Source: an uncultured Prochlorococcus sp.
GTDB lineage: Bacteria; Cyanobacteriota; Cyanobacteriia; PCC-6307; Cyanobiaceae
Reading direction: 5' to 3'
DNA length: 50,352 nucleotides
Assembly: GCA_902539115.1 (NCBI GenBank)
Contig: CACBHP010000007.1
Location: 1-50,352 of the forward strand
Position numbers and translations under genes: made by a program. Below are positions 1 to 10,393 of this stretch, in pieces (the stretch's first letter is position 1; the number at the start of each line of letters is the position of its first letter). The notes below the pieces were generated by a model, which had not been told where the DNA came from, searched no databases, and saw nothing but the letters and a program-made list of their open reading frames with translations.

Positions 1-1
1 T

Positions 2-70
2 GTTGGAACTATTAAATTAGCATCTTCAATTTTTTATGAAAAAAGTATAAGTGAATATTTAGCTCTTTAA
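2..70 (+). CDS. C-terminal end of an unidentified protein (partial)
   Basis: An open frame enters from the left edge and stops with TAA at 68-70. It encodes about 22 residues, starting VGTIKLASS and ending EYLAL. This is too short to name a family. Its position next to glycan genes suggests another polysaccharide gene, but that is only inference, and the frame could be chance read-through in A+T-rich DNA. Bases 71-211 between this stop and the convergent next gene show no clear feature. Confidence 0.35.
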   Translation, partial: VGTIKLASSIFYEKSISEYLAL

Positions 71-211
71 ATTTCCCTTAGTAATTTTGTTTTAATGTAA
101 GGCAATTTAATAAATCTGTAAATTTTTTATTAAATTAAGCATTTAGTTATATATTTAATATCTCTACAATTAAAAAATTTTCTTTTCTTTAAATCTATTT
201 GATAAATTATT

Positions 212-2113
212 TCAATTATTTAATTTTCTATTTCCCTTAAATTTTGGCATTTGTGAAGAATTCTTGGGATTTACACCTTCCTGCATTATTACTTTTTTTA
301 TAGTTAAAAAAAATATATAAAAGTCTAAAAGAAAATTCATATTTTTCGTATACCAAACATCTAATTTAAATTTTTCTTCCCATGAAATTGTATTACGTCC
401 TTTTATTTGTGCCCAACCACTAAATCCAGGATAACAATCATGTCTTTTAATTTGTTCATCATTGTAGTAATTTAAATACTCCATTAGAAGTGGTCTTGGA
501 CCAATAAAACTCATTTCACCCTTCAAAATATTAATTAAACTTGGCAATTCATCCAAAGATGTTTTTCTAAGAAAACGTCCAAGTTTTGTCTTTCTATCTT
601 TGTCTGCTAATAGATTACCCCTTTTATCTCTTATATCCTTCATAGATCTAAATTTTAATAAATTAAATTTCTTACACTTATAACCCGGCCTTTCTTGTTT
701 AAAAAAAACTGGCTCGCCCATAGATATTTTTATAAAAAAAGCAATAACTAAAAAAAGAGGAGATAGAAAAAACAAAAGTAAAATAGCAAAAAATTTATCA
801 CATAAAAATTTAAAAGCAAAGTATAAATTTCTTTTATGATAATTATTAACTCGACTATGGTTTTCAGAAAATGTTTTATTAATTATTCGAAGAAATTTTT
901 GAGATAGATCACTTCTAGAAAAATTCTGTTCAGCAATTTTTCTTGAATTATATGACATTTCTTGTAAAAGATTTTTGTTGTCAGACAAGTATATCAATCC
1001 CTTAGCAAAATCTTCAGGATCATTTTGTTTAACCTTTATTCCTAATTTATTGTTTAAAATAATTTCAGACATCCAACCAGGATAATTTATTAAAATTGGT
1101 AAGCCTGAAGATAAATAATCAAAAAATTTATTAGGTGAGGTACCTCTGTAAAACGCGGGGACATCTTTTAAAATCATTAAACCTAAATGAACATTATTTT
1201 TTAAAATTTCAGCTAATTCTAATTTAGGAAATGGATCTATGAAATGGCAATTATATATATTCTCATCAAATTTTTTCTTTATTAATTTGCTTTTCAATAG
1301 ACCATCTCCTATTAAAACTATATGAATATCATCCCTACCCATTTCCAAAAGTTTTTTAGCGGCATCAAGAACTGAATCTAAACCATTGGCTAAACCATGG
1401 GCTCCAGTAAAAGCTGCCAAGAATTCAATTTTCTTTCCATTAAATATTTTTATTTTATTTATTGTTTTGGGTACTACCTTTTTTGAGATTTCTAAAGTTT
1501 TAAAAATTTCCAAATCGCAGGCATTGGGAATTTCTATAACTTTTTTAGGCTCTTTATTTTTTAAAATAATTTCTTCACATATTCCTGGAGCTAAACCAAT
1601 AATATTATCTGCTGATTTATAACTCAACCATTCAAGAAGGTAAAGAGACCATAATATTAGTGGATTTTTAATTATTTCCATAGATTTTGGCAATTTAGGC
1701 CATAAATCTCTAACTTCAAAAACAAAGGGGATTCCTTTTAACCATCTTCCAAAAATACCTGGTAAAGATATAGTTAAAGGCGTTGAAGTAGCAAAAATCA
1801 AGTCATATTTTTCTTTAAAAACTAAAACACAACTTTTCCATGTATATTTTAAAAAGATTAATGATCTTGTGAAAATTGTATTTGAATTTGAGTATTTAAT
1901 ATCAAATTCAATAATATCAATTCCATCTACATAACCCCTTCTAAATCCATTCTTTGATTTACCTGTGAGTCCAGAATTTGATCTATCTGAATTTAAACAT
2001 ACAATAGTTACAGAATGTCCGCTCTTAATAAGTTCTAATGCAAATGAATATGATCTGGTGCCATTAGAACCATAAAGAGTTGAAAAATATTGATGAAAAT
2101 AAATTATTCTCAT
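212..2113 (-). CDS. Fused GT4-type glycosyltransferase and monotopic phosphoglycosyl transferase
   Basis: A single uninterrupted 633-residue frame carries two enzymes. Residues 1 to about 410 look like a WcaI/WbuB-type family-4 glycosyltransferase: an N-terminal MRIIYFHQYF strand, EVRDLWP, and a GAHGLANGLD nucleotide-sugar site. Residues about 426-620 are a bacterial sugar transferase (PglC/WcaJ core type): a hydrophobic membrane segment at about 436-462, ERPG at 474-477, KFRSM, the catalytic Asp-Glu pair at 521-522, GPRP at 538-541 and PGFSGWAQI at 562-570. Such PGTs transfer a phosphosugar to undecaprenyl phosphate, and the GT half could add the next sugar, so one protein may start a surface-glycan repeat unit. 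Sugar specificity cannot be read from sequence. The start is ATG. It lies 34 bases downstream of the heparinase-like gene on the same strand. Confidence 0.88.
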   Translation of the reverse strand: MRIIYFHQYFSTLYGSNGTRSYSFALELIKSGHSVTIVCLNSDRSNSGLTGKSKNGFRRGYVDGIDIIEFDIKYSNSNTIFTRSLIFLKYTWKSCVLVFKEKYDLIFATSTPLTISLPGIFGRWLKGIPFVFEVRDLWPKLPKSMEIIKNPLILWSLYLLEWLSYKSADNIIGLAPGICEEIILKNKEPKKVIEIPNACDLEIFKTLEISKKVVPKTINKIKIFNGKKIEFLAAFTGAHGLANGLDSVLDAAKKLLEMGRDDIHIVLIGDGLLKSKLIKKKFDENIYNCHFIDPFPKLELAEILKNNVHLGLMILKDVPAFYRGTSPNKFFDYLSSGLPILINYPGWMSEIILNNKLGIKVKQNDPEDFAKGLIYLSDNKNLLQEMSYNSRKIAEQNFSRSDLSQKFLRIINKTFSENHSRVNNYHKRNLYFAFKFLCDKFFAILLLFFLSPLFLVIAFFIKISMGEPVFFKQERPGYKCKKFNLLKFRSMKDIRDKRGNLLADKDRKTKLGRFLRKTSLDELPSLINILKGEMSFIGPRPLLMEYLNYYNDEQIKRHDCYPGFSGWAQIKGRNTISWEEKFKLDVWYTKNMNFLLDFYIFFLTIKKVIMQEGVNPKNSSQMPKFKGNRKLNN

Positions 2114-2147
2114 TTAAGTTTTTGTATTTTTTTTATAGTCTGCATGT

Positions 2148-4055
2148 TTAATTATTTTGTTTGTTAATCTCAAATTTCGTTATAATTTTAGCAGGAGAAT
2201 CTTTTACTCTAACCTCTAAGACTGGAATAGTTTTTTTGTAAAAATAAAATCTAGATTCGTATCCATATTTTAGATTTATGGAACATTTATTTTCAAAAGT
2301 ATTAATTTTTATTGAACCATATAAGCTTTTAATTTGATTATTTTCTTGTTCCCATTCTGCAGGTATTAATCTCCATCTAAGAGTCGCATATCCTGAAAAG
2401 TTTGAAATGCTATCTCTAATAATCCAAACAGTTCCTTCTGCGTTATATTCTATACTTCTAATGTGTTTTCCAAGATTACAAGAATAAGATGAAGATATTA
2501 TAAATTGATTACTAAAATTACTAAAACTATTACTTTGAATTCTTAGAAAATCAGAAGATAACCAATCCCCCCAAAGGAAACGGCCTATTTTTTTCATTGG
2601 CTCTAAAGAATTAAACTGGACAGTATTATGACTAGAGACTCCTTGAAAATAATTTAAATCATTAAAAGACGCATTATATTTATAACTACCTCCATCTCTT
2701 AAAATATTTTTTCCATTACTCCAAAGATCAAAATGTAGTGGATCAGCATGTATAGGTCTAAATTTATATATTGGAATCTTTAAATATGCCCAATTCTTTA
2801 AATTAGGGCAAATCTTAACATAACCTCCTTCTGGAAAAATTTTATAATCTTTATCACTTCGTATTGAATATTTTTCATTTTTAATATTAAGTCTTTGATT
2901 TAAATTGAGCCAAAATAAAGGTTCATCCCATATTCCTTTTTTCAATGATATTTCAACATTAAAAATAGTTGAGGCTAATCTCAAAGTAGGTCTAAAATTA
3001 GTATAGCTTTGACTATGAAACTTATAACAATATGTTCCATCATTTGCTCCTATATTTGAGGTTTGTCCAGTTAATGGGTCAACAAATTCATCAAGCCATC
3101 TTACGGCGTTTTTACAATTTTTATAGAACATTTCTGAAAACTTATCAAGTTTGAGAATTCTCCTCCAAATTTCAATTAAACATAATGTATCTAAAACAAA
3201 CCTATGATAATTAATTGAATATTGTGAAAAAGTTCCATCTTTCATTATTAAATTATTAATACAATTTTCAATAGAATTTCTACCTAGAGATTTATACTTT
3301 TTTTCATTAAGCCACGATCCTCCAATAAATAATCCTGCTGCTTCTGAAAGCCAATGATTATTCGCTTGTGCAATTGCATATTTATGTGTAACCAATATTC
3401 TTTTTAAATGTATATGAACAAATTCTTTTCTACTTTTGGTTCTTATTGGAGAAGATTTCGGTGCATCTAAAATTTGCCAAGTTTGCATTGCATGCAAAAG
3501 TCTTATTGCAACTTCTTGTCCGCATGTCCAGTTTAAACCAGAATTAAAGGGATTTTCTTCGCACCAACTTCTTGAAAACCTATTTAAACCCTCAGAATAT
3601 TTTTTTTCACCAGTCAATCTAAGAGCTCTCGCAAAAATTGGAGCCCAAGACCATCTAGAACTCTCCCATACTAATTTTATATCTTGATCAGCAAACAAAT
3701 TAAAATTTTCCCAATGTTTACTAGAGTTTTGAAAATCAACGTTTTCAAATGGATTGCAAAACCAATTAGGTGGCGATCCCACAAATTTATAATCTTTACC
3801 AAAAAAATCTAAAAAACCTCTTAATTGCTTATCAGCTTCTTCAACGCAAAGGGAATTTGCCTGTTTAAACCATTCTTCAATCACATTAAACGGTAATATA
3901 TCATCCAAAACCATATCTGGCACTGGACAACTATATATAGGATTTAAAAATGAATAAATTCGAAATCTTAACTTTAATCTATGAATAAATACATAAAAAC
4001 AATTTTTTACCCCTAATTTTCTTATTATTCCGAATATCACAAAATACCTTTTCAA
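2148..4055 (-). CDS. Heparinase II/III-family polysaccharide lyase-like protein
   Basis: This 635-residue protein matches the two-domain heparinase II/III plan: an alpha/alpha-toroid N-terminal region (about 95-340) and a beta-sandwich C-terminal domain (about 400-590). Visible signatures are NNHWLSEAAGL near residue 235, with the Asn-His pair expected at the lyase active site, and HADPLHFDLW near 437 with the conserved His. The family cleaves uronic-acid polysaccharides by beta-elimination. Homologues are also common inside bacterial capsule and exopolysaccharide clusters, where they probably trim or remodel the glycan. There is no obvious cleavable signal peptide, though the first 40 residues are basic with hydrophobic stretches. 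The start is TTG. It is followed on the same strand by the GT-PGT fusion, which supports a glycan-assembly role rather than nutrient degradation. Substrate unknown. Confidence 0.8.
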   Translation of the reverse strand: MKRYFVIFGIIRKLGVKNCFYVFIHRLKLRFRIYSFLNPIYSCPVPDMVLDDILPFNVIEEWFKQANSLCVEEADKQLRGFLDFFGKDYKFVGSPPNWFCNPFENVDFQNSSKHWENFNLFADQDIKLVWESSRWSWAPIFARALRLTGEKKYSEGLNRFSRSWCEENPFNSGLNWTCGQEVAIRLLHAMQTWQILDAPKSSPIRTKSRKEFVHIHLKRILVTHKYAIAQANNHWLSEAAGLFIGGSWLNEKKYKSLGRNSIENCINNLIMKDGTFSQYSINYHRFVLDTLCLIEIWRRILKLDKFSEMFYKNCKNAVRWLDEFVDPLTGQTSNIGANDGTYCYKFHSQSYTNFRPTLRLASTIFNVEISLKKGIWDEPLFWLNLNQRLNIKNEKYSIRSDKDYKIFPEGGYVKICPNLKNWAYLKIPIYKFRPIHADPLHFDLWSNGKNILRDGGSYKYNASFNDLNYFQGVSSHNTVQFNSLEPMKKIGRFLWGDWLSSDFLRIQSNSFSNFSNQFIISSSYSCNLGKHIRSIEYNAEGTVWIIRDSISNFSGYATLRWRLIPAEWEQENNQIKSLYGSIKINTFENKCSINLKYGYESRFYFYKKTIPVLEVRVKDSPAKIITKFEINKQNN

Positions 4056-4368
4056 AACTTCTCACCCTTAACAAACTAAACTCAGTACTATTTTCCATTA
4101 TAGATCAAAATATATATTAGAAATAAGAACAACTTAACTTGATTAATTATTATTAAACAACCATTATTTATAGTAATATCTTTAAAACTTAAAAAGATAT
4201 CAGTAAAATCTGGATACTGAGGTTAATTAAAATTAATAAAAGATTTAGCTAAATCTCCAAGATAAAAATTTCTCGAAGAATTCAACAAGCAATCACAATA
4301 AAGTACTATAAGAAATAACGACTTCACAAATAAATCTTTCAATAGATTTATATGAAGGACGTTTAGTT
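4056..4368. other. Noncoding spacer between heparinase-like gene and tRNA-Ala
   Basis: These 313 bases contain no convincing ORF. They presumably hold the promoter of the leftward glycan genes and that of tRNA-Ala (possible -10 TTATAT at 4348-4353). A perfect 16-bp palindrome, AGATTTAGCTAAATCT, lies at 4241-4256. It could be an operator, but a palindrome of this size is expected by chance about once or twice in a window of this composition. Confidence 0.5.
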
Positions 4369-4441
4369 GGGGCCATAGCTCAGCTGGTAGAGCACCTGCA
4401 TGGCATGCAGGGGGTCAGGGGTTCAAATCCCCTTGGCTCCA
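4369..4441 (+). tRNA. tRNA-Ala (anticodon GGC)
   Basis: The 73-base cloverleaf is complete. The acceptor strand GGGGCCA pairs with TGGCTCC and is followed by discriminator A. The D arm is GCTC/GAGC. The anticodon stem CCTGC/GCAGG encloses the loop ATGGCAT, giving anticodon GGC. The T arm is AGGGG-TTCAAAT-CCCCT. CCA is not encoded. This is the functional copy. A truncated relative lies about 115 bases downstream, which makes this a likely integration target in the island. Confidence 0.97.
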
Positions 4442-4555
4442 TTGAATTTTAGTAGTGATAACAATTAGTTTGAATAATTTTATACTTTTTTTTATCTCAA
4501 ATAAATTATAAACTGGTGATCTCTGCGACCATAACAACTGAATTTGTTAAAAGCT

Positions 4556-4621
4556 AGTTATAGCTCAATTTGGTACCTTCATGGCATGCAGGGGGTCAGT
4601 GGTTCGAATCCACTTGGCTCC
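4556..4621 (+). pseudogene. Decayed tRNA-Ala copy (possible att-site remnant)
   Basis: It shares TAGCTCA, the block ATGGCATGCAGGGGGTCAG and TGGCTCC with the intact tRNA-Ala. The 5' acceptor strand is unrecognisable, the 3' half of the D stem (AGAGC) is deleted, and one anticodon-stem pair is broken (CCTTC against GCAGG). Its T arm is still a perfect stem but uses different bases (AGTGG-TTCGAAT-CCACT) from the intact gene, so it is not a simple recent duplicate. It more likely derives from a different tRNA-Ala allele brought in by an integrating element. It is not expected to be functional. Confidence 0.8.
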
Positions 4622-4969
4622 TTTTTCTCTTTTTATCCTAAGGATATACTCAGAAGTTTAGTATTGGCATTAATTCCTAAGTACTTTTCCAAGTTTATTT
4701 AATAAAATATGCAAATTGAAATTGAAAAAAAATTTTTGTGGCATAAATAAAAAATTAATTTCCTTTGACAAGCTCATGAAATTAATCAAATCAATAATAG
4801 TTTTGCTCATAAATTATGATTTTAAAGAATTAATTTTAAAATAAATTCTTTTTCTAAAACCAAATGAGGTTAGATTGACGATCTATTTCTTATAAAGAAT
4901 AAAATTTAGAAAGCATTTAGTAAAATTAAGTTTATAGTTAATAAAATATAAATTAATTTTAGAAAAAAA
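4622..4969. other. Noncoding A+T-rich spacer before the glycan cassette
   Basis: These 348 bases have no supported ORF, tRNA or clear hairpin. They presumably include the promoter for the three-gene cassette starting at 4970, but no strong -35/-10 pair stands out against the A+T-rich background. Confidence 0.5.
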
Positions 4970-5947
4970 GTGAATATTTTAATTACAGGAGCTGGAGCGT
5001 TACTAGGACAAGGTATTTATAAATCAATGGAATATACAAATTCAATTAAAGAATACTTTGTTGGAATGGCAGATCCTTGTCCAACTTCTGCAGGATTATA
5101 TTGGGGAAATGCTTCTCATATTATTCCATATGCAAATGAAAAAAATTACATAACAGAATTAATTGAATTAATAATCAAATATAAGTATGAAATTCTAATA
5201 CCTGGAACAGATATTGAATTACCTATTCTTTCGCAACATAAGAAATTTATAGAAGCTCAAACTGAATGTAGATTAGTTATTAGTGAAAAGAATGTGATTG
5301 ACATAGCTAATGATAAGTATATGACTTATAAATTCCTTGAAAGAGAATCATTTAATCCACCAAAAACTTGTTTGCCACAAGATTTCGAGGAATTTTCGAA
5401 ACAGACTAATTACCCCTATATTATTAAGCCTAGATATGGTGCAAGGTCAGTTGGAATTTATTTAGTTAAGGATTATTCAACATTACAAAAAGTTTTAAAA
5501 AAATCTGATAAACCAGTAATTCAAGAATATATATCAGACAAAAATGGCGAATTTACAGCTGGATCTTTTACATTAAAAAATCAATGTTTATCTACTATTT
5601 TATTCCGAAGAGAATTAAGAGATGGGAATACATATAAAGCCGAAGTATATAATGAAGCAAGGATATCTGATCATATTCAAAGAATAACCAATAAACTTAA
5701 ACCATTTGGACCATGTAATTTCCAGTTTAGAATAGATGAGAGAGGTTTTCCCAGAGTATTTGAGATAAATGCAAGGTACTCAGGGACTACTATAATGAGA
5801 GTACAATCAAATTTTAATGAGGTAGATTGGATAATTAAATATTTTTTAAATAACGAAATTCCATTTATTAATGAAGAATTTAAAGAATTATCTTTCATGC
5901 GTTTTTTTGATTTAGTAAGCATTCCAAAAAATGACGTTCTAAAATAA
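4970..5947 (+). CDS. ATP-grasp family ligase, CarB-like
   Basis: This 325-residue protein starts with GTG. The N-terminus MNILITGAGALLGQG is a Rossmann-like pre-ATP-grasp domain. The ATP-grasp fold follows from about residue 115: YIIKPRYGARSVGI (ATP-binding Lys and glycine-rich loop), VIQEYI (adenine-binding hinge) and FEINARYSG (metal-binding Glu and Asn) near residue 265. The family joins a carboxylate to an amine or other nucleophile through an acyl-phosphate. It most resembles the carbamoyl-phosphate-synthase-like ATP-grasp proteins found in glycan clusters. It is the first gene of a cassette, only 4 bases before the epimerase gene. The likely role is to add an amide or amino-acid substituent to a sugar or lipid precursor; this is inference and the substrate is unknown. 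Confidence 0.8.
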   Translation: MNILITGAGALLGQGIYKSMEYTNSIKEYFVGMADPCPTSAGLYWGNASHIIPYANEKNYITELIELIIKYKYEILIPGTDIELPILSQHKKFIEAQTECRLVISEKNVIDIANDKYMTYKFLERESFNPPKTCLPQDFEEFSKQTNYPYIIKPRYGARSVGIYLVKDYSTLQKVLKKSDKPVIQEYISDKNGEFTAGSFTLKNQCLSTILFRRELRDGNTYKAEVYNEARISDHIQRITNKLKPFGPCNFQFRIDERGFPRVFEINARYSGTTIMRVQSNFNEVDWIIKYFLNNEIPFINEEFKELSFMRFFDLVSIPKNDVLK

Positions 5948-5951
5948 TAAA

Positions 5952-6863
5952 ATGATTGGTATTTCAGGATATTCAGGACTGCTTGGATCTTCAGTTTTAA
6001 GAAAATGTCTATCAACAAAAACTGAATTTAAAGTTTTCGGTAGGGGAAATGACTCTAAAAAAATATTTTATAATTTTGCTTATTTAAATCTAAATCAAGC
6101 AATTAATGAAAACATGATTAATGAGCTTAAAGGAATTAAAACTTTTATTCATTGTGCTTCTCAAATTAAACCAAATAAGTCATTAACAAATTTGAATTTA
6201 ATTCACAAAGATTTTATTGATAGAAATGCTTTATTTCAAAGTGAATTAATTGAAGCTTGTATAAAGGCAGATGTTAAAAAGTTGATTTTTATATCTGCTA
6301 CTAATAATTTAAAACCAAATCAAAATGGTTTTATAGATAAAGAATCTGGTTTTCAAACTAAAATAAACTCCTCTTATCTAATTTCAAAAATGGTTGCTGA
6401 ATTATTAAGCAAAACCTACAATAATGAAAATATTTTTATACAGTTTATTCGTCCAAGCTCTTTATATGGTTCTAATTCGAAATATGGTTTAGTGAATAAA
6501 TTTATTAAAAATCTTATAAATGGGGAAGAAATTATAATAGATGGAGACGGATCTTGGTCTTCAGATTTAGTCTATGTAGATGACGTTACCGATATAATTT
6601 TTAAACTGATAAATAATTTTAAAATAAATGAAATTAATATTGGGACTGGTAAATTAACGTCAATATTAAATCTTGCTCATCTTATTTGCAATAATTTAAA
6701 TTGTTCAAATAAACTTATTAAATTTAAAAAACAAACTACTATAAAAAATAGTCAAAATATCTTTTATCCTGTAGAACCAAAAGATTGTGAAAAGATATTG
6801 AATAGAAAAATGACCTCAGTCAGTGAAGGCGTTTCAAATATTATTAATAACTTAATTGATTAG
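5952..6863 (+). CDS. NAD-dependent epimerase/dehydratase (extended SDR)
   Basis: This 303-residue extended short-chain dehydrogenase has the nucleotide-binding motif G6-Y-S-G9-L-L-G12. Its catalytic Tyr142-xxx-Lys146 (YLISK) is preceded by the Ser/Thr-rich FISATN strand, and the RPSSLYG signature lies at 167-173. Relatives act on nucleotide sugars (4-epimerases, 4,6-dehydratases, reductases) in cell-surface glycan synthesis. The product cannot be named from sequence. It is the second of three co-directional genes with 4- and 5-base gaps, so it is almost certainly co-transcribed with the ATP-grasp and phosphoesterase genes and probably works in the same sugar-modification pathway. Confidence 0.85.
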   Translation: MIGISGYSGLLGSSVLRKCLSTKTEFKVFGRGNDSKKIFYNFAYLNLNQAINENMINELKGIKTFIHCASQIKPNKSLTNLNLIHKDFIDRNALFQSELIEACIKADVKKLIFISATNNLKPNQNGFIDKESGFQTKINSSYLISKMVAELLSKTYNNENIFIQFIRPSSLYGSNSKYGLVNKFIKNLINGEEIIIDGDGSWSSDLVYVDDVTDIIFKLINNFKINEINIGTGKLTSILNLAHLICNNLNCSNKLIKFKKQTTIKNSQNIFYPVEPKDCEKILNRKMTSVSEGVSNIINNLID

Positions 6864-6868
6864 ATTAA

Positions 6869-7714
6869 ATGAATTATGCTGTAGTTGGAGATATTCATGC
6901 AAATATTTTTGCTTTAGATGCTTGTCTTGATTCTTTGAAGAAGTTTCAAAATAACCAAAATTTTAAATTAGATAAAATAATTTTCATAGGCGATTTGTTA
7001 ACTTATGGAACACATGTAAATGATACTCTTGAAAAACTTTTAAATTTTAGCCTGAAAAATAATGTCGAATTTATTCTTGGTAATCACGATGAAATGTATC
7101 ATCAATTATTAAGTGGAAAAGACTCATATTACTTTAAGAAATTACCTGAATGGATAAAGATATCTGTAGATTTAACACTAGAAAAACTTGATGAAAAAAT
7201 TTTTAATTCATTTAAAATGAATAAATATTTAATTTTTGGGCAATCATTAATATGTCATGCAAATTGTTTAATATTGGACTCAGCTAATAAAAATAAATGG
7301 ATTTATATTGATTCATTAGAAAGTTATAAAGAAGAGGCAGAACGTCTTAAGAGATTAAATTTAAAATTAGCTGTTTATGGACATACTCATAGAAGAAAAA
7401 TATTTTTTAATGAAAAGCATCAAAAAGTATTTTTTAATGAAAACCCAAATTTTGAAAAATTTACCTTTGACTTAAGCAAATCCTCTCCTCTAATACTTAA
7501 TGCCGGTTCAATAGGTCAACCAAGATCATTAAATGATTTAGATTGTTCTTGGTTATTTATAGAAGAAGATCTTAACAATAATATTTATCAAATAAACTAT
7601 ATTAAATTTGAATATGATATTAATGGATACTTGAATGCCATTGATAAAGAATATTCATCAAATTTAGAACATGCAAAAAAATTTAAAAGTTTTTTTACAA
7701 AGTACAATAATTAA
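6869..7714 (+). CDS. Calcineurin-like metallophosphoesterase
   Basis: This 281-residue protein has the full two-metal phosphoesterase motif set: GDIH at 7-10, GD at 41-42, GNHD at 71-74, a metal-ligand His near 130 (ICHAN) and GHTH at 171-174. It resembles the YfcE/MJ0936 branch of small phosphodiesterases and phosphatases. It closes the three-gene cassette, 5 bases after the epimerase gene, and is followed by a possible terminator. In this setting it may remove phosphate from a sugar-phosphate or nucleotide intermediate made by its neighbours, but the substrate is not predictable. The start is ATG. A stop-proximal Lys-rich tail shows no extra domain. Confidence 0.85.
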   Translation: MNYAVVGDIHANIFALDACLDSLKKFQNNQNFKLDKIIFIGDLLTYGTHVNDTLEKLLNFSLKNNVEFILGNHDEMYHQLLSGKDSYYFKKLPEWIKISVDLTLEKLDEKIFNSFKMNKYLIFGQSLICHANCLILDSANKNKWIYIDSLESYKEEAERLKRLNLKLAVYGHTHRRKIFFNEKHQKVFFNENPNFEKFTFDLSKSSPLILNAGSIGQPRSLNDLDCSWLFIEEDLNNNIYQINYIKFEYDINGYLNAIDKEYSSNLEHAKKFKSFFTKYNN

Positions 7715-7726
7715 AGATACTTTTAG

Positions 7727-7753
7727 CTATTCAAACCAATAGATTTTTTTTTT
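7727..7753 (+). terminator. Possible intrinsic terminator of the glycan cassette
   Basis: CTATT and AATAG can form a 5-bp stem around a six-base loop. They are followed by one A and ten T residues, 12 bases after the phosphoesterase stop. The stem is short and A+T-rich, so the call rests mainly on the T tract and its position. Confidence 0.35.
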
Positions 7754-7837
7754 CTTATAAATATTTAGAAATTTCAAACTGAACTATGTTAAAAAATCTT
7801 TGAAAAGGTCCTTAATTGGAATTATTTGCAAAGATTC

Positions 7838-7888
7838 TTTGGTACTGCAAGCGTGCAGGGGGCACTAATAAGACTGAGATTTGCTCCA
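7838..7888 (+). other. Possible second, heavily decayed tRNA-Ala-like fragment
   Basis: The segment keeps TTTGGTAC, TGCAGGGGG and TTGCTCCA in the same order and nearly the same spacing (about 50 against 53 bases) as the tRNA-Ala remnant at 4570-4621. The T arm is lost. The match is short and could be chance, but its location between convergent island genes fits an old integration boundary. Confidence 0.3.
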
Positions 7889-7998
7889 ATTAAAATTAAA
7901 CACTTTCTAATTCTTTTTTAAAATTTAATAATACAAAAATAGATTAAATAAGTATAATTTTTATTTATAAGATTAATCTGTTTTTACTTTTAGAAAGT

Positions 7999-8721
7999 CT
8001 ATAACTTTTTCTGAAAAAACTTTACTCTACCTTCGCTAGCTATTTCTACAAATTTATTTTTTGATAATTTTTCCAAAACTTCATTATAAAAATTATCTTC
8101 TAAACCAGAATGTTTTCGAATTCCATGAAATTCTATTAAGATTTTATTAAGACAAGAAGGCCATTTATTATTAAGTAAAAGTTCATACTCATTACCTTCA
8201 ATATCTAGTAACAAAAAATTATATTCAAATTTCATATAAATTTCTTCAAGAGTTATACAGGGAATCTTAACTTTATTTTTGGAATTAATTCTCTTTTCTA
8301 TTGAAGATGAATGAATTTCTTTATTTAAATAAAAGTCTAACTCTTTCCTTTTATTAACAATACAATTGAGTACTTTAAAACTTACATTATTTAATTTTTT
8401 TAGGGAATTTATAACATTTATCATCCTAGGATTTGCCTCAATTGCAAGAACATTTTCAGAAGTTATTATTTTGGAAGCAAAAGTAGAAAGAAAGCCAGTG
8501 CAAGAACCTATTTCTAAGACTCTGTCTTTTCTTTCAATATATTTGGATAAAAGTCTAATTTCAGAGGATTCCCAACTATTTTGGTAAAAAAAATTCTTAT
8601 ATTTCTTAAGAATCTCATCACTTACATCAATTTTAACTCCATAGTTAGTAACGATACCTGGTTGAAATACTAACCTATATATATATTTTATTAACTTCAA
8701 AAATTTATAAAATATTTTCAC
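7999..8721 (-). CDS. FkbM-family SAM-dependent methyltransferase
   Basis: This 240-residue protein has an S-adenosylmethionine-binding motif VLEIGSCTG at 68-76, the acidic second strand with AIEANP at about 94-98, and the LLDIEGNEYELL segment typical of FkbM-type O-methyltransferases (PF13578/PF05050-like). In polysaccharide islands this family usually methylates sugar hydroxyls, which can alter phage or grazer recognition. The acceptor is unknown. The start is GTG. A hydrophobic, basic first 20 residues may associate with the membrane. It stands alone on the minus strand, convergent with the cassette on its left and divergent from the glycosyltransferase on its right. Confidence 0.85.
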   Translation of the reverse strand: MKIFYKFLKLIKYIYRLVFQPGIVTNYGVKIDVSDEILKKYKNFFYQNSWESSEIRLLSKYIERKDRVLEIGSCTGFLSTFASKIITSENVLAIEANPRMINVINSLKKLNNVSFKVLNCIVNKRKELDFYLNKEIHSSSIEKRINSKNKVKIPCITLEEIYMKFEYNFLLLDIEGNEYELLLNNKWPSCLNKILIEFHGIRKHSGLEDNFYNEVLEKLSKNKFVEIASEGRVKFFQKKL

Positions 8722-9031
8722 TTTTTTTATAAATATTTTTTATATTAACACACCAAAATTTTCCTTAATTAATGTAATTTCTTTAATGCTTATTTGAATA
8801 GAATTGAGACATTTTCCATATTCCTTTTAAGCTTAAGCTATAGTTGAACCAAAATTATTATTTAATCTTCATACTAAATATTTAGATTTACACCATTAAT
8901 CAAACTATGCATTTTTTTAATATAAATAGCAATAGCGATAATAAAAAAGTTAATACTTAAGAAAGTAAATAATTTGATTTCTAAAATTACTCTATAAAAT
9001 ATTATTAGGTTTTTGAAATTACAATAAAAAA
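8722..9031. other. Divergent promoter region, no gene seen
   Basis: These 310 bases separate the divergent methyltransferase and glycosyltransferase genes and should contain both promoters. Many TATA-like hexamers occur, but none can be preferred in such A+T-rich DNA. No ORF, tRNA or stable hairpin is supported. Confidence 0.5.
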
Positions 9032-10246
9032 ATGAATAGTGAAATTATTTTTTATAGACCAAAAGCAAAAGGACATGGAGCTACTTTTAGGCAAGAATGT
9101 TTAATAAAATACTTAATTAAAAAATCTGAAATCATACACATTATCACACTCGAAAAAGAAAAATTCCATATTGAGGGAAAATACAATGTCAGAAATTTAA
9201 TTTTCAACAAACTTGCAAGAAAAGTTTCAATTTTAAGATGGATATTTTTGCTATTAACGACATTTTTTTTGATCTCAAACTTGCGTAATAAGTCAATTAA
9301 ATTAATTGCTTTTTCAGATTATGAATCTATTATCTTCAGGTTAGCTTTATCAATATTAGAAATAAAGCATATGATTTCTAAAAACTTAATTAAAAAAAAT
9401 ATTAAAGAAAAACCAAAATTTGAAATTATTTTCTTTTCTAGAGGTGATATAGTTGAAATTTTTAAAACAAATCATCCTAAAATTAACTTTATAAAAAATT
9501 TAATAATAAACATTAGCATCTCATATTATAAGAAAATTCAACTTCTTGGGATACTATCTTCTTCTAGATACGTAGTTCAGATGGATTTTTTAAAAAATAC
9601 TATCAATAGTAGATTTTCTATTGCAAAAGAAATTGATGTAATTAGCAACAATATTATTTATCCAAAAATTAACATTAACTCGAATAGTAATAATAATAAA
9701 TTAACTAAAAAAAATTTTCCTTTTAATTCACAAATAACTATTGGTTTTGCGGCACCTCTTTTTTTAAGAGTTAAATCTTTAGATATCTTTATAAAGATTT
9801 GTAATGAACTAAACAGTAATTTCCCTATAAAAGTTATTACTGCTGGAAGTGGTGTAGATGAATTATATTTCACCTCTAAAATAAGAAAAATTATTGGTGA
9901 AGATAATTATTTACATCTTGGATGGTTAGATAATTTGAATATTTTTTTTGAAAAGATTGATATCCTTATAATTCCTAGTAGATATGATTCTTGTCCTAAT
10001 TTCTTGTTAGAAGCAATTAATATTCCAAACATAAGAATAATTGCTTCAGACATACCTGCACATAGAGAAATATTAATGCAAAATGATCTCTTATTTCCTC
10101 TAGAAAATTTCAAAGAAATTAATTACAAATTTAAAAAAATCATATTAATGAAAAATGAGAGATATAAAAGTTATATAAATAAGGTAAAAGAAAAATATAC
10201 GTTCAATTGGGAAGATGAAATTTACAAAGTAATAAACAAAACTTAG
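9032..10246 (+). CDS. Glycosyltransferase, family 4-like (GT-B fold)
   Basis: This 404-residue protein is poorly conserved in its N-terminal half but has a recognisable GT-B C-terminal domain: GFAAPLFLRVKSLD, ITAGSG, LHLGWLD, PSRYDSCPNFLLEAI (with the conserved Glu) and ASDIPAHREIL. These are typical of family 4 retaining glycosyltransferases. It probably adds a sugar to a lipid-linked surface glycan at the cytoplasmic membrane; donor and acceptor are unknown. Base composition is extremely A+T-rich with many Asn/Lys/Ile codons, like the other island genes. It is the last island gene before the conserved lexA-argF-ftsH block. The ATG at 9032 is the only sensible start. Confidence 0.82.
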   Translation: MNSEIIFYRPKAKGHGATFRQECLIKYLIKKSEIIHIITLEKEKFHIEGKYNVRNLIFNKLARKVSILRWIFLLLTTFFLISNLRNKSIKLIAFSDYESIIFRLALSILEIKHMISKNLIKKNIKEKPKFEIIFFSRGDIVEIFKTNHPKINFIKNLIINISISYYKKIQLLGILSSSRYVVQMDFLKNTINSRFSIAKEIDVISNNIIYPKININSNSNNNKLTKKNFPFNSQITIGFAAPLFLRVKSLDIFIKICNELNSNFPIKVITAGSGVDELYFTSKIRKIIGEDNYLHLGWLDNLNIFFEKIDILIIPSRYDSCPNFLLEAINIPNIRIIASDIPAHREILMQNDLLFPLENFKEINYKFKKIILMKNERYKSYINKVKEKYTFNWEDEIYKVINKT

Positions 10247-10393
10247 TTGAAAGCCAAATAAAAAAAAGGAATCTACATAAGATTAAAGTTTTATATTTTG
10301 GAATAAATGATATATGTAAATTTATAGTCAATTAAAATTTACTTTCAAAATTTCCTCTTATTTACTTAAGGTAAAATTAAATTAATTTTAAAA

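Follow-up and report, generated by a model that had tools for sequence, protein, structure and literature searches.

A 50,352-base stretch of DNA from an uncultured Prochlorococcus sp. (contig C7 of a genome of 1.1 Mb that is 70% complete; hereafter the window) carries three closely packed genes for an ATP-grasp carboxylate-amine ligase, an extended short-chain dehydrogenase/reductase (SDR), and a calcineurin-like metallophosphoesterase. We found that a ligase of this kind, an SDR, and a phosphoesterase predicted to be intact are kept together in several phyla, with the phosphoesterase slot filled by either a calcineurin-like or a PHP-type enzyme. We put at about even the chance that the trio is a horizontally carried module for sugar N-acylation, in which a UDP-amino sugar would receive a carboxylic acid on its 4-amine, both substrates being putative. 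We conclude that the cassette is real and recurrent and that its probable chemistry, ATP-grasp amide decoration of surface sugars, is of a kind already known.

Recurrence of the cassette and its phosphoesterase slot

The initial annotation of this DNA described a compact cassette of ATP-grasp, SDR, and metallophosphoesterase genes with gaps of 4–5 bases, and the open reading frames (ORFs) and the Pfam and NCBIfam matches agree with it. The genes lie on one strand, separated by 4 and 5 bases (Table 1), and the ligase (PF02655, E = 4.9e-11; PF15632, 4.4e-11), SDR (Epimerase PF01370, 3.2e-26), and phosphoesterase (Metallophos PF00149, 3.4e-14) all match past the curated cut-offs. Against NCBIfam NF009402 (cut-off 218 bits) the window ATP-grasp scores 299.3 bits, and three other cassette ATP-grasps that we scanned score 365, 391.6, and 465 bits; it is 32–40% identical to the other 33 sequences in our ATP-grasp alignment. 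The LRDGNTY and KPR-GARS stretches are conserved in the ATP-grasps, the conservation of LRDGNTY being overstated because that stretch was partly our search pattern. AlphaFold2 models gave a predicted local distance difference test score (pLDDT) of 95.2 for the ligase, whose closest solved folds are 2pn1 and PylC, and 88.1 for the phosphoesterase, whose closest are 3rqz and then the Ap4A hydrolase SapH; the SDR profile is matched best by UDP-sugar 4-epimerases. The window SDR keeps the SDR motifs GxxGxxG (G6, G9, G12) and YxxxK (Y142, K146). The eight phosphoesterase residues of the predicted two-metal site (D8, H10, D42, N72, H73, H130, H172, and H174) do not vary across the 16 sequences that we aligned. 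The predicted catalytic residues of both the SDR and the phosphoesterase are thus intact. MPE9, a cassette profile trained without the window, matches the window phosphoesterase at E = 5.2e-46.

Absence of the trio from other genomes had been set beforehand as the result that would overturn the proposal. We conducted an alignment-based scan of genome contigs with the ATP-grasp. Of its 112 stretches, 77 held confirmed loci, and together with a Sinorhizobium meliloti locus this gave 78 loci (L numbers below denote individual stretches). All three genes were together in 70 of these 78, with the SDR directly downstream of the ATP-grasp in 74 and a phosphoesterase adjacent in 73; the proposal was thus not overturned on this point. 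No phosphoesterase of calcineurin-like (MPE) or PHP type was found elsewhere in the fetched stretches of the 78 loci. Because 70 of the 78 loci keep the trio and no such phosphoesterase lies elsewhere in the stretches, the association is far beyond chance. Single-sequence queries gave the same picture as the profile counts over the cassette loci. The phosphoesterase was missed in L070 and L076, which run into contig ends, and in L090, L103, and L108, which are without one; the SDR was missed in L055, L056, L064, and L108. Loci with the full trio belong, by record title or taxonomy, to Pseudomonadota, Bacteroidota, Myxococcota, Acidobacteriota, Chloroflexota, Bipolaricaulota, and Verrucomicrobia, and the order found in the window (ATP-grasp, SDR, phosphoesterase) also occurs in myxobacterial, acidobacterial, Legionellales, verrucomicrobial, and Bacteroidota loci.

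The phosphoesterase slot is occupied by more than one kind of enzyme. Across the 78 loci it holds the calcineurin-like type of the window (MPE9) in 28, a PHP enzyme in 26, and a second calcineurin-like type (MPE8) in 19, so that 47 of the 73 adjacent phosphoesterases are calcineurin-like and 26 are PHP. Representatives of the two classes match PF00149 and PF02811, respectively, and the swap is therefore non-homologous. On the ATP-grasp tree the MPE and PHP labels need four changes, at least two of which are forced by well-supported branches; the window ATP-grasp sits on a long branch and its placement is unsure. For this tree L034 was labelled as its near-copy L050, six unlabelled rows were left out, and L109–L111, with cut or broken ATP-grasps, were omitted from the tree and retained in the counts. 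A higher count of phosphoesterase changes (4, 3 and 3 forced) was discarded, as L053, L059, L063, and L089 had been mislabelled "none" where the ORF caller missed or misplaced the gene. In L042, L061, and L080 the phosphoesterase gene overlaps the SDR gene by 4 bases. Two unrelated families in one slot, with fixed partners, narrow the reaction to one that needs phosphate removal.

These observations bear on a reading as amino-acid or peptide decoration, with ligation of an amino acid to a sugar amine and an unrelated housekeeping role, such as nucleotide or pyrophosphate clearance, for the phosphoesterase. The fold neighbours of the ATP-grasp include PylC and L-amino acid ligases, and the second-nearest PDB entry to the phosphoesterase is an Ap4A hydrolase, both of which would suit this reading. 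We nevertheless consider it quite unlikely, as the use of two unrelated phosphoesterase families in the slot and the 4-base overlaps with the SDR gene argue for a dedicated step.

Proposed chemistry and the evidence from neighbouring genes

Returning to sugar N-acylation, we examined the genes around the cassette. In 46 of 78 loci the ATP-grasp has a sugar transferase gene no more than 5 kb away. DegT aminotransferase genes occur within 8 kb in 41 and FlaA1-type dehydratase genes in 34; 58 loci have one or the other, and 71 have at least one of the three kinds nearby. Such neighbours belong to UDP-4-amino-sugar synthesis, like EpsC, EpsN, and EpsL of Bacillus subtilis (PMC10653937). The compact cassette in a surface-glycan context that the initial annotation envisaged is supported, most likely with an amide-type decoration as its role. 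Its description of the pathway as self-contained is not supported: the sugar transferase, DegT, or dehydratase genes (at least one of them in those 71 loci) stand in this genome outside the trio.

The same neighbours argue against a soluble-metabolite pathway apart from surface glycans, such as one making a nucleoside-like product of the sort proposed for Ter operons. The ligase does match the PF15632 ATPgrasp_Ter model (43.1 bits against a cut-off of 29.1), but no Ter family besides this match was found in the seven island proteins scanned, and with sugar genes near 71 of 78 loci we regard such a pathway as very improbable.

If the trio does carry out sugar N-acylation, its chemistry might proceed as follows. 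A UDP-2-acetamido-4-amino-trideoxyhexose would first be made by a 4,6-dehydratase and a DegT enzyme, whose genes lie on contig C2 in this genome. The phosphoesterase would either free a small acid from a phosphorylated metabolite, our leading guesses being glycerate from 3-phosphoglycerate or serine from phosphoserine, or strip a phosphate after ligation, which is the order of steps in the Campylobacter jejuni capsule, where the phosphatase removes phosphate after amide ligation. The ATP-grasp enzyme would activate the acid as an acyl phosphate and form an amide on the sugar 4-amine, replacing the usual acetyltransferase; the SDR would epimerise or reduce the sugar and so set its stereochemistry. 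Finally, the sugar transferase would start a surface glycan by loading the product, as its first residue, onto undecaprenyl phosphate.

Replacement of the acetyltransferase can be compared with the gene content of the loci. Among the 30 loci with both a sugar transferase and a DegT gene, three PglD/hexapeptide acetyltransferase proteins were found in two (L078 and L087); the Pfam scan gave families by member number, and the assignment of these members to L078 and L087 comes from profile matches. A regular expression for hexapeptide acyltransferases recovered three of six known positives and was set aside in favour of Pfam. Formyltransferase, PIG-L, and WbqC genes, which point to amine chemistry, are neighbours in some loci. 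WbqC-type genes stand beside ATP-grasp relatives in L136, L137, L064, and L069, and PIG-L in L064 and L069; the WbqC of L064 is the one checked against Pfam.

In this genome, a dehydratase and an adjoining DegT gene are present on contig C2 (Table 1). Their closest NCBIfam models are PseB and PseC, with both matches below cut-off. The C2 DegT is 42–45% identical to the DegT proteins of five loci from rhizobia, a set in which Rhizobium sullae is represented twice. The sole PglD_N match in the genome sits inside the dehydratase frame. The dehydratase and DegT genes lie at the end of C2 and a sugar transferase gene at the start of C7, and the two contigs may adjoin.

An alternative that uses the same classes of enzyme is a uronamide route, in which the ATP-grasp would couple a uronic acid, through its carboxylate, with a small amine, possibly in phosphate form, before the phosphoesterase strips the phosphate. 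This would give a direct reason for a phosphatase to accompany the ligase, a UDP-sugar dehydrogenase-like gene is present in this genome (Table 1), and an ATP-grasp ligase is paired with a phosphatase in the C. jejuni pathway of Cj1438C. However, uronate-forming dehydrogenases occur in 6 of 78 loci against 58 of 78 for amine-forming genes, and the Pfam matches of the window ATP-grasp at E ≤ 0.001 are to ATP-grasp models other than TupA. We therefore judge the uronamide route unlikely.

Several points weigh against sugar N-acylation as the role of the trio, or limit the counts that favour it. Only 17 of 78 loci have a DegT gene and a dehydratase gene together in range, and another count, also 17 of 78, gives the loci with neither amine-forming nor uronate-forming genes; the uronate count itself comes from a profile built on six of these loci and this genome's own gene, which divergent dehydrogenases may escape. 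The acetyltransferase scan with Pfam covered 42 of the 54 unclassified neighbour proteins of 130–330 residues, GNAT-type proteins (Pfam Acetyltransf models, up to two members each) are among those scanned, and a PglD-like gene of L067 lies just beyond range. There are 12 hexapeptide matches on other contigs of this genome, which is incomplete, and its dehydratase and DegT genes are on a contig other than that of the trio, to which their link is presumptive. The likeness to the ATP-grasp domain of PglB2 (below) is one of described role and not of sequence comparison. Three PHP loci are without an SDR, two Bacteroidota loci are without a phosphoesterase, and L108 has neither; since some loci do without one or both, neither partner is strictly required. 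Finally, the profiles behind the 78-locus counts drew their training sequences from those same loci. For this reason we drew a separate sample of 292 cyanobacterial genomes, in which seven, including that of the window, had the ATP-grasp at E ≤ 1e-40; in the five of the other six that we examined, a phosphoesterase was adjacent in all five (PHP once, calcineurin-like four times) and an SDR in two.

Genomic setting in Prochlorococcus

The trio lies in a low-GC surface-glycan island between tRNA-Ala and lexA (window positions 1–10300), with the trio 3′ of the tRNA. The island is hypervariable, its gene content being different in 18 of 18 relatives (compared over stretches of 18.6–19.8 kb ending at lexA); 12 of the 18 stretches carry the tRNA-Ala(GGC) and none carries the trio. 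We additionally observed a partial copy of the 3′ part of the tRNA between the tRNA and the trio (Table 1), a possible integration scar of the kind expected from a tRNA-targeting mobile element. A third tRNA fragment at 7845–7862 was considered as the end of the island and rejected, its score of 21 comparing with a 99% point of 20 and a maximum of 23 in shuffled sequence. In an Rfam scan the non-tRNA matches were all under their gathering scores. Hypervariability of the island is consistent with a surface role, without demonstrating the phage-recognition role raised in the initial annotation. The PADLOC-DB models had no match for two of the trio proteins and a weak partial match for the phosphoesterase (PDC-S10, 7.8e-05 over 47 residues). 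The island of one relative (L157) holds another ATP-grasp relative with PIG-L, SDR, and dehydratase-like genes.

Table 1. Positions of the cassette and of associated features (window coordinates unless prefixed L127)
Feature	Position	Strand	Details
ATP-grasp carboxylate-amine ligase, NCBIfam NF009402 (PRK12767.1-1) subfamily	4970..5947	+	ORF 325 aa, GTG start
Extended SDR, nucleotide-sugar epimerase/reductase type	5952..6863	+	ORF 303 aa
Calcineurin-like metallophosphoesterase, complete predicted two-metal site	6869..7714	+	ORF 281 aa
GT4 and bacterial sugar transferase (phosphoglycosyl transferase) fusion	212..2113	-	PF02397 2.4e-59, PF00534
tRNA-Ala (GGC) at island border	4368..4442	+	
Partial copy of tRNA-Ala 3′ part, between tRNA and trio	4575..4621	+	43/47 identical
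4,6-Dehydratase	L127:5210-7090		contig C2; PF02719
DegT aminotransferase	L127:7129-8316		contig C2, adjoins dehydratase; PF01041
UDP-sugar dehydrogenase-like gene	L127:1199-2641		named from sequence; matches uronate profile by construction

Within the genus, we sampled 200 genomes, of which 66 reach 90% completeness or more, and the whole trio was confined to the genome of the window. No other genome of this sample had the SDR at E ≤ 1e-20. Besides itself, the ATP-grasp found three relatives at 26–32% identity and six short partial matches, and the phosphoesterase found 39 distant matches (best E 1.7e-6), 37 at 25–28% identity and two short ones at 42–47%. As no other sampled genome has the trio and the islands of relatives are without it, we conclude that it is accessory in the genus and probably acquired.

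Single-sequence scans for the phosphoesterase confirmed none of 32 pattern stretches in genome contigs and none of 10 in viral contigs, and that for the ATP-grasp did not confirm the one pattern stretch in viral contigs. By tblastn, phages gave one weak match for the ATP-grasp and no match for the phosphoesterase, whereas in plasmids the ATP-grasp matched 116 records and the phosphoesterase two, both weakly. One viral-classed contig (IMGVR_UViG_3300050821_003696, L115 5953-9179), possibly host DNA, has consecutive genes for an ATP-grasp, an SDR, and a DegT protein.

At the start of the window, the GT4-sugar transferase fusion is a candidate for loading the decorated sugar onto a lipid carrier, its connection to the trio being presumptive. 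A gene for a heparinase II/III-like protein adjoins the fusion on the minus strand (window 212-4055).

Comparison with known systems and implications

A close parallel is the branch of the Neisseria pgl pathway with PglB2, a sugar transferase joined to an ATP-grasp domain. PglB2 is credited with the replacement of diacetylbacillosamine by a glyceramido sugar, and the part played by its ATP-grasp domain is a proposal (PMC11130364 and PMC6959607). As in that branch, which leads to glyceramido-acetamido-trideoxyhexose (GATDH), an ATP-grasp enzyme would replace the N-acetyltransferase (as proposed there) on the 4-amine of a trideoxyhexose, and a phosphoglycosyl transferase would follow (PMC11130364 and PMC6959607). 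Unlike the single PglB2 fusion, the ligase and the transferase are separate ORFs here, and an SDR and a phosphoesterase are conserved with them. On the simplest reading, the cassette would be a stand-alone version of PglB2 chemistry with its own step for acid supply or trimming.

Two other systems share parts of this arrangement. The dehydratase, DegT, and monotopic sugar transferase that recur near the cassette resemble the Bacillus subtilis EpsC-EpsN-EpsM-EpsL set, which makes UDP-N,N′-diacetylbacillosamine (UDP-diNAcBac) and transfers it (PMC10653937); unlike in Eps, an acetyltransferase of the EpsM/PglD type is mostly not found near the cassette. In C. jejuni capsule amidation, ATP-grasp amide formation and a dedicated phosphatase belong to one pathway: Cj1438C, described as TupA-like, makes an amide at the C6 carboxylate of glucuronic acid (PMC11800379), and the HAD phosphatase is named in the title of a reference of that paper. 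Where that pathway uses a HAD phosphatase and a TupA-like ligase with a uronic acid as substrate, the cassette has another ATP-grasp subfamily, calcineurin-like or PHP enzymes, and mostly an amino-sugar context.

In Sinorhizobium, full-length ATP-grasp relatives are 39–42% identical (tblastn, plasmids). On S. meliloti pSymB the order is cysD, nodQ, cysQ, a PHP-domain protein, the ATP-grasp, and an NAD(P)-dependent oxidoreductase; as in the window, a homologous ATP-grasp (39% identity) has an SDR directly downstream and a phosphoesterase adjacent, here directly upstream. Unlike in the window, the phosphoesterase is PHP and not calcineurin-like, the set lies behind the sulfate-activation genes cysD-nodQ-cysQ, and it is annotated by domain name only. 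An annotated sulfotransferase lies about 10 kb from this Sinorhizobium cassette (L035), which the sulfate-activation genes adjoin. Putative sulfotransferase-like genes, named from a motif, lie 3–6 kb from sphingomonad cassettes such as L066 and L086.

Judged by titles and the opening parts of abstracts, none of the matches listed from the open-licence literature described the trio as a unit. We tentatively suggest, with confidence somewhat short of even, that it is a widespread undescribed module that would make the acylated initiating sugar of surface glycans from a UDP-4-amino sugar and a phosphorylated compound of central metabolism, and that it has spread between phyla as a unit while its phosphatase step switched between non-homologous enzymes at least twice. 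To our knowledge, ATP-grasp genes annotated as "carbamoyl phosphate synthase-like" occur in glycan loci with substrates that are mostly unknown. A fixed set of partners with a two-family phosphoesterase slot makes the substrate of the ligase directly testable. The module would provide a genomic marker for non-acetyl N-acyl sugars in rhizobia, sphingomonads, Bacteroidota, and cyanobacteria, and it would be a concrete case of a surface-glycan pathway gained as cargo in a cyanobacterial island.

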